From NCBI GenBank assembly GCA_026415985.1, contig JAOAGA010000032.1, positions 1 through 17,752 of the forward strand: a stretch of DNA of 17,752 nucleotides. Reading direction: 5' to 3'. This DNA comes from Pseudomonadota bacterium. Its GTDB lineage: Bacteria > CALINM01. Position numbers and translations under genes: made by a program. This document shows positions 542-8,993 of the stretch, one piece after another (within the stretch, counting starts at the first letter, position 1; each line of letters opens with the position of its first letter). The notes beneath the pieces are model-generated. The model worked only from the letters and a program-made list of their open reading frames with translations, made no database searches and was not told where the DNA came from.

Positions 542-2542
542 TTATAAACCGTACTTACCGGATTTTTTACCATCTATTATAGTCTGAACTACCGATGGAT
601 CTGCAAGAGTTGTTGTATCACCGATATTTTCAAACTCGTTTTCTGCTACCTTTCTTAGAATTCTTCTCATAATCTTACCGCTTCTTGTTTTTGGGAGGTT
701 AGGTACAAAGTGCAGAATATCCGGGGTTGCTATTGGTCCTATTTCCTTTCTGACATGCTGAATTAGCTCTTTCCTCAAGTCTTCTGATGCAGTGAACCCT
801 TCCTTGAGTATGATATAGGCGTAAATGCCCTGACCTTTAATATCATGAGGCATACCAACTACTGCTGCTTCCGCAACCGCTTTGTGTGAAACAAGAGCGC
901 TTTCAACCTCAGCTGTACCAATTCTGTGGCCAGAAACATTAATAACATCATCAACCCTTCCCATAAGCCAGTAATAGCCATCCTCATCTTTTCTACAGCC
1001 ATCACCGGTAAAATATTTACCCTTGTACATTGAAAAATAGGTCTGTTTAAATCTCTCATGATCACCATATACGGTTCTCATCATACCGGGCCAGGATTTT
1101 TCAATAATAAGTTTACCACCCTCATTAACACCTACTTCCTGTCCGTTATCATCAACTACTTTTGGAACTACACCAAAGAAAGGTAAACCTGCAGAACCGG
1201 GTTTTTGAAAAGAAGCACCGGGTAATGTTGCAATAAGATGTCCACCTGTTTCGGTCTGCCACCATGTATCTACGATAGGACAGCGCTGACGACCAATTAC
1301 ATTGTAATACCATACCCAGGCTTCGGGGTTAATAGGTTCACCTACAGTTCCGAGAAGCCTTAAGGAAGAGAGATCTCTGCCATTTGGCCACTGGTCACCA
1401 TCTCTCATCATCGCTCTAATGGCAGTTGGTGCGGTATAGAATATATTTATCTTATATTTCTCAACGATTTCCCAGAACCTGTCTGGTTTTGGATAGTTTG
1501 GAATACCCTCAAACATAAAGGAAGTGGCACCATAAGAAAGAGGACCATAAACAATATAACTATGACCGGTTACCCAACCTATATCGGCGGTACACCAGTA
1601 TAGATCATGATCTTTATAATCAAAAACATACTTAAAAGTTGCGGTTGTATAAAGTAGATATCCGCCTGTTGTATGACAAACACCTTTAGGTTTGCCTGTG
1701 CTACCTGAAGTATATAATATAAACAAGGGATCTTCAGCGTCCATAACTTCTGGTTCGCAGTAATCAGGTAATTCAGGGTCAGCCATAAGTTCGTGCCACC
1801 AGAAATCCCTTCCGTCTTTCATATTAACAGGATTACCGGTTCTTTTACAAACAATGACTGTTTTAATTGTTGAAGTTCTGGGGTCGGCTAATGCCTCGTC
1901 AACATTTTTCTTTAGTGGAACTACTCTTCCGCCTCTTAAACCTTCATCTGCTGTAATCAAGAAAGAACATTGTGCATCCTCTACTCTGTCAACAATTGAA
2001 GCAGGTGAAAAACCACCGAATATAACGCTATGAATAGCACCAATTCTTGCACAGGCAAGCATTGCAATGGGTAGTTCAACAATCATCGGAAGGTATATTG
2101 TAACCCTATCACCTTTTTTGACACCGAGTTTTTTCAATACATTGGCAAACTTATTAACCTCTCTGTAAAGCTGTTGATAGGTCAAGGTTTTTGTTTCATA
2201 ATTATCACCTTCCCAAACGAGAGCTGCTTTGTTTCTTCTCCATGTCTTTGTGTGTCTGTCAAGACAGTTATAACTTACATTAAGCTTACCGCCCTCAAAA
2301 TACTTAATAACAGCGTTTTCAAAATCATAGTATTCTACCTTTTTCCAGTCAGTACTATACCAGTCGAGCAACTCTTTTGCTAAATCACCCCAAAAACCAT
2401 CAGGGTCTTGTAATGAACGATCATACATCTTTTTGTACTCTTCATAGCTTTTGACATATGCCTGTTCTACAAACTCTTTTGATGGATAAAACTTTCTTGA
2501 TTCTTGAGATAAAGATTCGTAACTCTTTTTTTCTTCAGCCAT
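542..2542 (-). CDS. acsA: Acetyl-CoA synthetase (acetate--CoA ligase, AMP-forming)
   Basis: Cytosolic ligase converting acetate, ATP and CoA to acetyl-CoA, AMP and PPi. It is full length at 666 residues (E. coli Acs is 652). Seen: ATP-binding loop [11 protein letters not shown] at about 277-287, WVTGHSY at 323-329, TVGEP at 399-403, WWQTETGG at 427-434, the core/C-terminal hinge region around 515-530, SGHRIGT at 537-543, and [11 protein letters not shown] with the adenylation Lys at 623. That lysine is the one reversibly acetylated in known Acs enzymes. The acyl-pocket residues matching Salmonella Val310, Thr311, Val386 and Trp414 are V324, T325, V400 and W428, so acetate is the expected substrate. 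A strong SD (AGGAGGA at 2549-2555) supports this ATG. It is divergent from an IclR regulator and ends in a strong hairpin. Regulation by that neighbour is likely but inferred. Confidence 0.97.
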
Positions 2543-5635: not shown

Positions 5636-5657
5636 GGGGGCATAAGCCCCCTTTTTT
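5636..5657 (+). terminator. Intrinsic terminator of the second acyl-CoA synthetase gene
   Basis: GGGGGC/GCCCCC 6-bp stem with an ATAA loop, followed by six T (5652-5657), 5 bases after the synthetase stop. It also lies directly behind the convergent DUF4124-type gene, whose stop codon complement (5656-5658) overlaps the T-run. On that strand the trailing bases are GTAATTT, a poorer U-tract. Confidence 0.92.
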
Positions 5658-6204
5658 ATTTGTTAGCTAAGTCGTCTATTTTCTGATCCTTTGTTTCAAG
5701 AGATTTCTTAATTTTGTTTATATCTTTCTTAGCCTCTAAAAATGTCTCAACCTGTTTGTTGGCATACTTACTGAACATATAAATACCAATGATAAAAACT
5801 ATTGCAAACCTTAAAAGTGTTATTATTTTTTTATTTTCGATGAAAAAAAGTATCCTGTGGGCAAAGATAAAAAAAACAGCGAAAAATAGAGAAATAAATA
5901 ACTCATACCAGAAATTTTTTTCCCCGTTTACTATAGATTCTATTGACAAATTTCTCTGTTTTGAGTTAATAACTGTTTCCTGATTAGGTGGTTGTTGATT
6001 TAAGTTTTTAACCGGTTTTATGTCTTTTTGAAATTCCTTTTCTTCTTTTATTATTTCTACTTTGTTTTTATACTCCTGTGGGATATCTTTAATATCGTTT
6101 GTGAAATTGACAATACCATTTTTGTCTATATATTTGTATGTATCTGCAAAGGCATATGAAACGATAATTGAAAAAATGATTAAAAAAATAAAACATCTCA
6201 ACAT
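5656..6204 (-). CDS. DUF4124-type exported protein with two membrane helices and a C-terminal coiled coil
   Basis: 182 residues from the ATG at 6204. Seen: a signal peptide 1-20 ending SYAFA before Asp21; a DUF4124-like module at 22-50 (TYKYIDKNGIVNFTNDI); a polar, Pro/Gln-rich linker to about 95; membrane helices at about 101-122 and 127-147; and a charged heptad-like helix at 150-182. If the signal is cleaved, DUF4124 is periplasmic, the short ENKK turn cytoplasmic (positive-inside) and the C-terminal coil periplasmic. Function is unknown for the family. A TTG at 6231 would add nine residues but lies upstream of the predicted transcription start and has no SD. The ATG has no SD either but sits six bases after a TATACT box, which fits a leaderless mRNA. 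It is divergent from an NlpC/P60 hydrolase. Confidence 0.75.
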   Translation of the reverse strand: MLRCFIFLIIFSIIVSYAFADTYKYIDKNGIVNFTNDIKDIPQEYKNKVEIIKEEKEFQKDIKPVKNLNQQPPNQETVINSKQRNLSIESIVNGEKNFWYELFISLFFAVFFIFAHRILFFIENKKIITLLRFAIVFIIGIYMFSKYANKQVETFLEAKKDINKIKKSLETKDQKIDDLANK

Positions 6205-6210
6205 AAAGAA

Positions 6211-6239
6211 AGTATATTTTTTTTGTGACAACCGGTCAA
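6211..6239 (-). promoter_or_regulatory. Promoter of the DUF4124-type gene, apparently leaderless
   Basis: On the minus strand, TTGACC (6234-6239), a 17-bp spacer, TATACT (6211-6216), then six bases and the ATG at 6204. The expected start, about 7 bases after the -10, coincides with the A of the ATG. No SD is present. Confidence 0.7.
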
Positions 6240-6253
6240 ATAAAAAATATAAT
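6225..6253 (+). promoter_or_regulatory. Promoter of the NlpC/P60 gene, apparently leaderless
   Basis: GTGACA (6225-6230), a 17-bp spacer, TATAAT (6248-6253), then nine bases and the ATG at 6263. The expected start near 6260 leaves about 0-3 leader bases and no SD. Its -35 lies 3 bp from the -35 of the opposing promoter, within an inverted repeat TGAC-N5-GTCA (6226-6238), so the two polymerases should interfere. Confidence 0.7.
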
Positions 6254-6262
6254 AATATATAA

Positions 6263-7276
6263 ATGTTTTTTAGAAATTTGCTTCTCTCACTTTTAGTATT
6301 TTTTTCACTTACAAATCAATGTCTGGCAAGCTTTCTTTTCAAAAATCTCTCTTCCGTTAATGGCTTGAGTTTTGATAATTTCTCTTCCGTTAACCGGGAT
6401 GGTGTTATAAAAAGAGGTAGCTATTTAGTTTTCTCGCCCTATACAGGTATAACCATTAAAAATAATAATAAACTCACTTTTATTAAACCACAAAGTCCTG
6501 TAAAAATAATTGCAAAACTGAAAAATCAGCCCTTTTATTTCTGTGAACATGAGAAGCTTAATGGCTTTGTAAAAGAAGAGGATTTTAGCTTCATAGATGA
6601 TAAAAGTTTAGAATTTTTTCTGAGCTTAGACACCCTTTATCTTAAAAAACCACTTTTTATAGGAGATGTATTGTTCCCGACGGCAACTGAGGTTAGATAT
6701 GTAAATCGCAAAAAGTTTTTTTATGAAGTTTATATCTGGGAAGATGGTTTCAAAAGAGCATATATTAACAAAAAATATTTAACTGATAAAATCAAGCCAA
6801 CAAAGGTTAACTATAAAAAAATAACCGGTTTTTTTAATGGCTCTCCTTATTTTTGGGCAGGAAGCGAAAGGGGTTGGGACTGTTCCTTACTGGTTAAAGA
6901 TTTCTACAAAATTTTTGATATTGAGATGCCAAGAAACTCCTTTCAGCAGATAAGCTGTGTAGAAAATATTGATGTGAGTAATTTATCATTAAAAGAAAAA
7001 ATTAAGATACTAAAAAAATCAGAACCTTTTGAAACACTTCTTTATTTTCCCGGCCACATAATGATTTTTTCCGGTTTTAAGGGAAAAGAGCCTATGAGTT
7101 TTCAGGCAATTAACAGATTTAACAATAAATTTTATGGTAAAGTTGGTCATTTTCCGCTGAAAAAAACTGGTTTGCTTAATAAGGTAACCAAGATTGGCTA
7201 TATTCCCTTAAAAGGTCAAGGAAATTTGACTATATCCCGAGTGGAAGGTAAAATTCAAAGTATAGTAAAAGATTGA
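6263..7276 (+). CDS. Exported SH3-like / NlpC/P60 (C40) cell-wall hydrolase
   Basis: 337 residues. Seen: a signal peptide at about 1-22 (cleavage near CLA-S; no lipobox); SH3-like beta-rich modules at about 45-180, where GFVKEEDF and AYINKKYL resemble SH3b edges; and an NlpC/P60 domain at about 185-320. Catalytic Cys207 lies in GWDCSLL and His265 in FPGHIMIF, with Gln281 or Asn284 as candidates for the third polar residue. The MPRNSFQQ segment (222-229) is typical of SH3-containing NlpC/P60 peptidases. The family cuts peptide bonds in peptidoglycan stems, commonly gamma-D-Glu-diaminopimelate; acting in the periplasm is inferred. The usual DCSG is DCSL here. The ATG is preceded by a promoter rather than an SD. 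Its stop lies 17 bases before the zinc-ribbon gene, so the two are probably cotranscribed. Confidence 0.85.
   Translation: MFFRNLLLSLLVFFSLTNQCLASFLFKNLSSVNGLSFDNFSSVNRDGVIKRGSYLVFSPYTGITIKNNNKLTFIKPQSPVKIIAKLKNQPFYFCEHEKLNGFVKEEDFSFIDDKSLEFFLSLDTLYLKKPLFIGDVLFPTATEVRYVNRKKFFYEVYIWEDGFKRAYINKKYLTDKIKPTKVNYKKITGFFNGSPYFWAGSERGWDCSLLVKDFYKIFDIEMPRNSFQQISCVENIDVSNLSLKEKIKILKKSEPFETLLYFPGHIMIFSGFKGKEPMSFQAINRFNNKFYGKVGHFPLKKTGLLNKVTKIGYIPLKGQGNLTISRVEGKIQSIVKD
6348..6393 (+). repeat. 13-bp exact direct repeat inside the NlpC/P60 gene
   Basis: TCTCTTCCGTTAA occurs at 6348-6360 and 6381-6393, offset by 33 bases. It encodes an in-frame SSVN repeat eleven residues apart just after the signal peptide. 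It looks like a small internal duplication or slippage product. Confidence 0.75.
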
Positions 7277-7293: not shown

Positions 7294-7791
7294 ATGGCAA
7301 AAAATTTTCAGGCAAAAGACAGGAGAGATATAAAACACCTTGACAGAGGTAACCCCTATTTTGAATACCGGAAATATCCTGAACCTACGGAGTGTAAAAA
7401 CTGCGGGCTTGTTTTTGTAGATGGAAGATGGGCGGTGAAGACCATTAGCAAGGGAATAGCCAATAAGGAAATTTGTCCAGCCTGTAGAATTATAAAAGAC
7501 AAGATACCTTTTGGTATCTGTGTGTTGGAAGGTAATTTTCTGAAGGATGAGAAAAATAAATCAGAAATCATTAATATTATTAAAAATATTGAAAAAAATG
7601 TCAGAGAGAAGAGACCTCTCCAAAGAATTATGGAAATAAAAGAAGAAGATGGCAAGCTTGAAATTACAACAACCTACGATCATTTAGCCAGAAGAATTGG
7701 TGAATCTATTTATAAGGCATATAAAGGAGAGTTGGTGCTCAAGTATCAGGAAGGAGAAAGATTTGCCAGAGTTTACTGGAAAAGAGATTAA
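7294..7791 (+). CDS. BCAM0308-type zinc-ribbon protein
   Basis: 165 residues from the ATG at 7294, preceded by AGGAGG (7284-7289). A TTG at 7273 would overlap the upstream stop and is less likely. Seen: a charged N-terminus, then PEPTECKNCG and EICPACR, giving four cysteines (34, 37, 61, 64) in a C-x2-C...C-x2-C ribbon. A second half follows with a PLQRIMEI strand and a TTTYDHLARRIGESI helix, then a short beta segment ending RVYWKRD. The order and spacing match what I recall of the BCAM0308 family, whose ribbon resembles the N-terminus of the ribosome export adaptor NMD3. Biochemical function is unknown. It sits 17 bases behind the NlpC/P60 gene, the only gene in that short operon with an SD. 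Confidence 0.78.
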   Translation: MAKNFQAKDRRDIKHLDRGNPYFEYRKYPEPTECKNCGLVFVDGRWAVKTISKGIANKEICPACRIIKDKIPFGICVLEGNFLKDEKNKSEIINIIKNIEKNVREKRPLQRIMEIKEEDGKLEITTTYDHLARRIGESIYKAYKGELVLKYQEGERFARVYWKRD

Positions 7792-7832: not shown

Positions 7833-8993
7833 ATGAAAAAGGTCTATTTTGACCATAATGCGACAACACCTATCCATCCAAAAGTCAGGTCTGCTATAGA
7901 ACCCTTTTTGGGGGAAAAGTTTGGCAATCCCTCTTCTATTCACTGGGCTGGCAGAGAGGTTCGTGCCTATGTGGAAGAAGCAAGGGAAAAGGTAGCGAGT
8001 CTTATTAATTCAGACCCATCGGAGGTAATATTTACGAGTTGTGGTTCAGAAGGTGATAATATGGCAATAAAGGGCGTCCTTATGGGTAATCTTAAGAAGG
8101 GGCGTCATATTGTAACAACTGTTGTTGAACACCCTGCTGTTTTCAGAACCTGTAAATTTCTTGAAGATTTTGATTTTGAGGTAACCTATGTTCCTGTTGA
8201 TAGTTATGGCATGATTGATCCCGATGATGTAAGAAAGGCAATCAGGAAGGATACGGTTCTTATTTCAGTGATGTTTGCAAATAACGAAACAGGAAACCTG
8301 TTTCCTATAAAAGAAATATCTGCTATTGCAAAGGAAAATGATATTGTTTTTCATACCGATGCAGTGCAGGTTGTTGGAAAAATCCCTATTGATGTTAAAG
8401 AGTTAGGGGTAGACCTACTAACCGCTTCAGGACATAAATTTAATGCACCCAAAGGAATCGGTTTTCAATACATCAGAAAGGGAGTTAAGATCCTTCCTCT
8501 GATTTCAGGCGGACATCAGGAAAGAGAGCTCAGAGCAGGTACAGAAAATATGCTTGGTATAGTAGCAATCGGCGAAGCCTCACAGATTGCTAAAGAAGAA
8601 ATGAACGAGAAATCAAGGCATATTGGTTATCTAAGAGACAGATTGGAAAAGGGTATTCTTGAGACAATTCCTTATACGGTAATAAACGGGCATCCTGAAA
8701 AAAGGCTTTATAATACTACAAATATCAGCTTTAAGTTTATAGAAGCGGAAGCCTTGCTTGTTATGCTTGATATGAACGGAATTGCGGTTTCAACCGGTTC
8801 AGCCTGTTCTTCCGGAGCAACGGAGCCCTCCTATGTTTTACAGGCAATGAGTTTGGATCCTCTATGTTCAAGAGGTGCTCTGAGATTTAGCTTGGGGTAT
8901 GGTAACACAGAAGAAGATGTCGATTACTGCCTTTCTGTACTTCCGTCTCTTGTAGAAAAAATCAGAAAGATGTCACCATTCTATAAAAAATAA
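7833..8993 (+). CDS. nifS: Cysteine desulfurase, NifS/IscS type
   Basis: PLP enzyme taking sulfur from L-cysteine to a protein persulfide, releasing alanine; cytosolic. 386 residues, normal for group I desulfurases. Seen: FDHNATTP at 6-13, His100 in VVEHPAV (stacks on PLP), the ANNETG loop at 149-154, HTDAVQ at 174-179, PLP-binding Lys202 in SGHKFNAPKG, RAGTEN at 234-239, and active-site Cys325 in STGSACSSG. NifS and IscS cannot be separated by sequence alone here. There is no iscU, iscA or iscR beside it, but mnmA starts nine bases after its stop, so supplying sulfur for tRNA thiolation is the likeliest local role, with Fe-S assembly also possible. Translation probably starts on a near-leaderless mRNA. 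Confidence 0.95.
   Translation: MKKVYFDHNATTPIHPKVRSAIEPFLGEKFGNPSSIHWAGREVRAYVEEAREKVASLINSDPSEVIFTSCGSEGDNMAIKGVLMGNLKKGRHIVTTVVEHPAVFRTCKFLEDFDFEVTYVPVDSYGMIDPDDVRKAIRKDTVLISVMFANNETGNLFPIKEISAIAKENDIVFHTDAVQVVGKIPIDVKELGVDLLTASGHKFNAPKGIGFQYIRKGVKILPLISGGHQERELRAGTENMLGIVAIGEASQIAKEEMNEKSRHIGYLRDRLEKGILETIPYTVINGHPEKRLYNTTNISFKFIEAEALLVMLDMNGIAVSTGSACSSGATEPSYVLQAMSLDPLCSRGALRFSLGYGNTEEDVDYCLSVLPSLVEKIRKMSPFYKK

Follow-up and report, generated by a model that had tools for sequence, protein, structure and literature searches.

Crossed divergent promoters with −10 boxes close to both start codons in a 58-bp intergenic region of an uncultured bacterium

The divergent gene pair and its promoters

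The window analyzed here is a stretch of 17,752 nucleotides (contig JAOAGA010000032.1 of assembly GCA_026415985.1), in which two genes diverge from an intergenic region of 58 bp (6205..6262). The gene on the minus strand (5656..6204) codes for a 182-residue exported or membrane protein of the DUF4124 type, with an N-terminal signal or anchor and two further hydrophobic segments; its match to DUF4124 is weak, at 19.4 bits, under the cut-off of 22. The gene on the plus strand (6263..7276) codes for a 337-residue exported NlpC/P60 cysteine peptidase (family match 27.9 bits, cut-off 23), which is related to solved γ-D-glutamyl-L-diamino-acid endopeptidase-like proteins (best 3m1u, E 1e-12). The start codon of this gene is backed by the homologues of two relatives, which align from the first residue. 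Next in the operon is a zinc-ribbon/NMD3-like gene (7294..7791, plus strand), preceded by the Shine-Dalgarno (SD) sequence aggagg. An Rfam search of the window returned no match.

Direct reading of the gap reveals two complete promoters of opposite orientation. The minus promoter consists of a −35 box, TTGACC (6239-6234), and a −10 box, TATACT (6216-6211), that ends 6 nt (ttcttt) before the ATG at 6204-6202; the full promoter scores 11.3 with a position weight matrix (PWM). The plus promoter (PWM score 11.9) consists of GTGACA (6225-6230) and TATAAT (6248-6253), the latter 9 nt (aatatataa) before the ATG at 6263. The spacer is of 17 nt in both. The two −35 boxes are separated by 3 bp (6231-6233), and the motifs TGAC (6226-6229) and GTCA (6235-6238) lie within them. 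The promoter cores (6211-6239 on the minus strand and 6225-6253 on the plus strand) cross, with 15 bp in common (6225-6239), and each −35 box sits within the spacer of the opposite promoter. Every coordinate, box, spacer and distance in the first-pass annotation, including the 58-bp gap, proved right. Its description of the pair as back-to-back holds for the presence of two complete promoters, but not for their layout, as the cores are interlocked: two opposed promoters with cores that share DNA are overlapping divergent promoters. Because of the 15-bp overlap, we infer, as the annotation had and on fair grounds, that RNA polymerases would exclude one another and bind one at a time.

From the usual σ70 spacing, the minus transcript is predicted to start at the A of the ATG (6204), which is the sole purine near the expected +1 position. 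For the plus transcript, the +1 position is expected at about 6259-6262, for a predicted leader of about 1-4 nt. That the minus gene starts instead at an upstream TTG (6231) is unlikely, since this codon is located inside the promoter spacer and has neither an SD sequence nor an upstream promoter of at least 9/12; the peptide made from it would likewise resemble a signal sequence.

Another candidate promoter, TTGACA-16-TATATT, is found on the plus strand at 6107..6134, inside the DUF4124 gene and antisense to it. Its score of 11.1, a level seldom reached in coding sequence, is nearly that of the gap promoters. If the site is used, it could give a second, leadered mRNA of the NlpC/P60 gene, with about 120 nt ahead of the ATG. 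It seems to us quite improbable, however, that this site, with that leader antisense to DUF4124, is the main promoter of the gene: the SD sequence normally expected in a leader of this kind is missing, and a higher-scoring promoter adjoins the ATG. Moreover, the TTGACA is complementary to codons for the GIVNF motif in the DUF4124 domain, and the promoter-like site may for this reason be fortuitous. Elsewhere in the window, a perfect consensus promoter, TTGACA-17-TATAAT, occurs at 2679-2707 on the plus strand, in the divergent gap between an acetyl-CoA-synthetase-type gene (542-2542, minus strand) and the gene for an IclR regulator (start at 2798, or TTG at 2774).

Rarity of the arrangement and a genome-wide class of close promoters

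Could the boxes in the gap be promoter-like sequence that arose by chance within AT-rich DNA? A simple consensus scan over 1.2 kb, taken by itself, agrees with this view, as it detected no overall excess (5 matches versus 5.8 ± 2.3), because the DNA is AT-rich. However, the scores and the placement of the two promoters are far beyond chance. Promoters were scored with a single PWM, an approximate E. coli matrix applied to this non-E. coli genome; with it, scores of at least 11.3 occur at 0.0026 per strand-kb in the coding sequence of this genome (about 1,151 strand-kb examined). Among 100,000 simulated 58-bp gaps, one such close promoter on the tested strand was found in 9, and promoters on both sides in none. 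The gap is the fourth shortest of the 46 divergent gaps that were called in a 742-kb genome sample (one of the 46 being negative), and no other pair with a gap of 110 bp or less carries a strong close promoter in each direction. Four crossing promoter pairs are present in the sample; the pair in the window overlaps the most, and no other has both scores above 11. Together with the positional class of close promoters seen genome-wide, described below, these figures make chance an extremely improbable explanation.

The genome-wide comparison was based on gene calls for this 742-kb sample, about 47% of the genome, with starts picked by codon score only and the upstream sequence ignored. The distance between the −10 box and the start codon was assessed for promoters scoring at least 9, in 261 leading and 337 operon-internal genes. 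In the leading genes this distance was bimodal, with one group at 6-13 nt and another at 27-39 nt and above. Thirteen of the 261 had a −10 box at 6-13 nt, versus 0.6 expected from shuffles, and 19 had one at 27-39 nt, versus 0.4 expected; a single gene fell at 21-26 nt. No −10 box at 6-13 nt was found for any of the 337 operon-internal genes (Fisher P 2e-5 versus the leading genes). An SD sequence was present in 1/14 genes of the close class but in 20/30 of the far class (P 2.6e-4). In one relative (G002) both classes recur, with 6 genes at 6-13 nt and an SD sequence in 1/6 versus 20/24, and when three genomes were pooled the figures were 2/21 for the close class and 45/60 for the far class (P 1.5e-7).

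Both genes that flank the gap fall in the close class, and for both the SD match length is 0. A missing SD sequence does not by itself establish leaderless initiation. The existence of a class with −10 boxes at 6-13 nt in which SD sequences are rare, and which includes both genes, gives indirect support to the proposal made earlier that the two mRNAs are leaderless or near-leaderless. In published leaderless bacteria, a TANNNT motif precedes the start by about 12 bp (Zheng et al., 2011; PMC3160421), and in leaderless genes of Deinococcus the −10 box lies 6-7 bp before it (PMC12340547); the distances of the close class agree with both. The window holds what appears to be a third member of the leaderless class, an IscS-like gene that starts at 7833 on the plus strand after a same-strand gap of 41 bp, with the arrangement TTGACT-16-GATAAT-10 nt-ATG and no SD sequence.

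Dyad symmetry, gene order in relatives and promoter competition

The two promoters are related by a 39-bp dyad (6213..6251, center 6232), in which 15 of the 17 arm positions are complementary (6213-6229 versus 6235-6251) and which runs on into the T tract and the A tract of the spacers. The hexamers alone do not account for this much symmetry, as shuffling all but the hexamers reached 15/17 in 0.65% of trials (P about 0.0065, post hoc). A dyad of this extent could be an operator, bound by a dimeric regulator (a CRP/FNR-like one, for example) that would cover both −35 boxes and control both genes. However, the crossing of two TTGAC-type −35 boxes yields TGAC-N5-GTCA on its own account, and this motif is found in no other intergenic region of the 742-kb sample. 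In the whole genome, dyad matches with up to 2 mismatches show no excess (26, versus 33 in a reversed control), and the full site has no second copy within 3 mismatches. The dyad does not, in other words, recur upstream of several genes as the operator of a CRP/FNR-like regulator would. Because the site is single and looser versions of it do not rise above the control, it is unlikely that the dyad serves a wider regulon as its operator, and an operator through which a dimeric regulator controls the two genes is, in our view, improbable. Possibly, a dedicated local regulator acts at the dyad, or one promoter arose by inverted duplication of the other. The dyad was also considered as a terminator and rejected, since on both strands the T run comes before the stem, on its 5' side. 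A second whole-genome match to the region (in C133) is a short A-rich stretch of 25 bases.

The locus was compared with those of two other species of the phylum, both members of the family and of other genera; further contig searches returned only the same two relatives, and no viral contigs. In both relatives the NlpC/P60 gene is not divergent. It is second in a different operon, behind a LigD-type phosphoesterase gene (identified by eye from its sequence) whose end overlaps the NlpC/P60 start. The DUF4124 genes of the relatives are on other contigs, in another operon, and have only the N-terminal domain in common with the protein in the window. Because both relatives have another gene arrangement, the pairing of the DUF4124-type gene with the NlpC/P60 gene is not common to them. 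In all three phylum genomes compared, the gene after NlpC/P60 is the zinc-ribbon/NMD3-like one, whose function is unknown (in the relatives, L005 2445-2939 and L004 962-1456, the latter on the minus strand). The phosphoesterase gene was not found in the present genome, which is 84% complete, in a search run without a control. In the relative G001, a ZIP-type transporter gene (L116 171-977, minus strand) is divergent from the phosphoesterase-NlpC/P60 operon and has TTGACA-16-TATATT just 6 nt before its GTG start.

These comparisons bear on the suggestion of the first-pass annotation that the gap is a built-in switch which selects either an envelope hydrolase or a membrane partner protein. Crossed promoters that evolved for mutually exclusive expression of the hydrolase and a functional membrane partner would be in keeping with the shared 15 bp, with the fact that both genes encode exported proteins and with a symmetry greater than the hexamers imply. 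However, the arrangement is missing in both relatives, and there is no sign that the two proteins interact; nothing marks them as partners, and the suggested switch is unsupported. Moreover, the exclusive divergent promoters of E. coli do not compete at basal activity, which is too low, and when one side is strongly activated the other is reduced in a graded manner, not as a switch, and noise falls (PMC12825309). Exclusive binding by itself would predict passive competition. A dedicated switch seems to us very unlikely.

We think it likely that the 58 bp form a compact pair of overlapping divergent promoters, both outputs of which would be leaderless or nearly so, with passive competition and no dedicated switch. 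As judged from the sequence, RNA polymerase with the housekeeping sigma factor would occupy the gap facing either one gene or the other, as each −35 box is part of the opposite spacer. Both first genes would be transcribed with no or almost no 5' leader, because their −10 boxes are 6-9 nt from the ATG, and the ribosome would read their AUG codons without an SD sequence, as presumably for the minority class of genes found genome-wide. The downstream operon gene (7294..7791) would instead rely on its SD sequence. The two outputs would then compete passively, according to promoter strength and occupancy.

Comparison with known promoter arrangements

In the bidirectional promoters of E. coli, the two directions have a −10 element in common and the starts are usually 10, 18 or 23 bp apart (Warman et al.; PMC12825309). 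The pair in the window resembles them in its dyad-symmetric promoter DNA and in that one binding event would exclude the other. It is not a bidirectional promoter in that sense, as its −10 boxes are separate (6211-6216 and 6248-6253) and the expected starts are about 56 bp apart. A minimal two-way promoter, distinct from the type with a shared −10 element, is conceivable: dyad-symmetric, interlocked and of less than 60 bp, it would serve two leaderless genes with outputs coupled by polymerase exclusion, and would be feasible because leaderless initiation frees divergent genes from leaders. We regard this last reading as doubtful, and the locus does not establish a new regulatory principle.

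Overlapping divergent promoters are a known kind (Beck and Warren, 1988, as cited in PMC4469952); one case of two promoters that overlap is fepA/fes (PMC4469952). The likeness is in two opposed σ70-type promoters that share DNA, so that polymerases must compete. Unlike in that type, the pair in the window is crossed at the −35 boxes and would be leaderless on both sides, so that only 58 bp are shared.

Leaderless genes with a TANNNT −10 element are also a known kind (PMC3160421; for Deinococcus-Thermus, PMC12340547), and the locus appears to belong to both. The likeness to these genes is in the −10 boxes 6-9 nt from the ATG, the lack of an SD sequence and the genome-wide class of first genes. 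The differences are that here both members of one divergent pair are involved, that the −35 boxes are clear, and that the genes are those of a small uncultured phylum, of which three species were compared. This phylum joins the bacteria in which a sizeable minority of first genes apparently have leaderless mRNAs, and at the present locus leaderless starts would let two genes share a promoter region of 58 bp.
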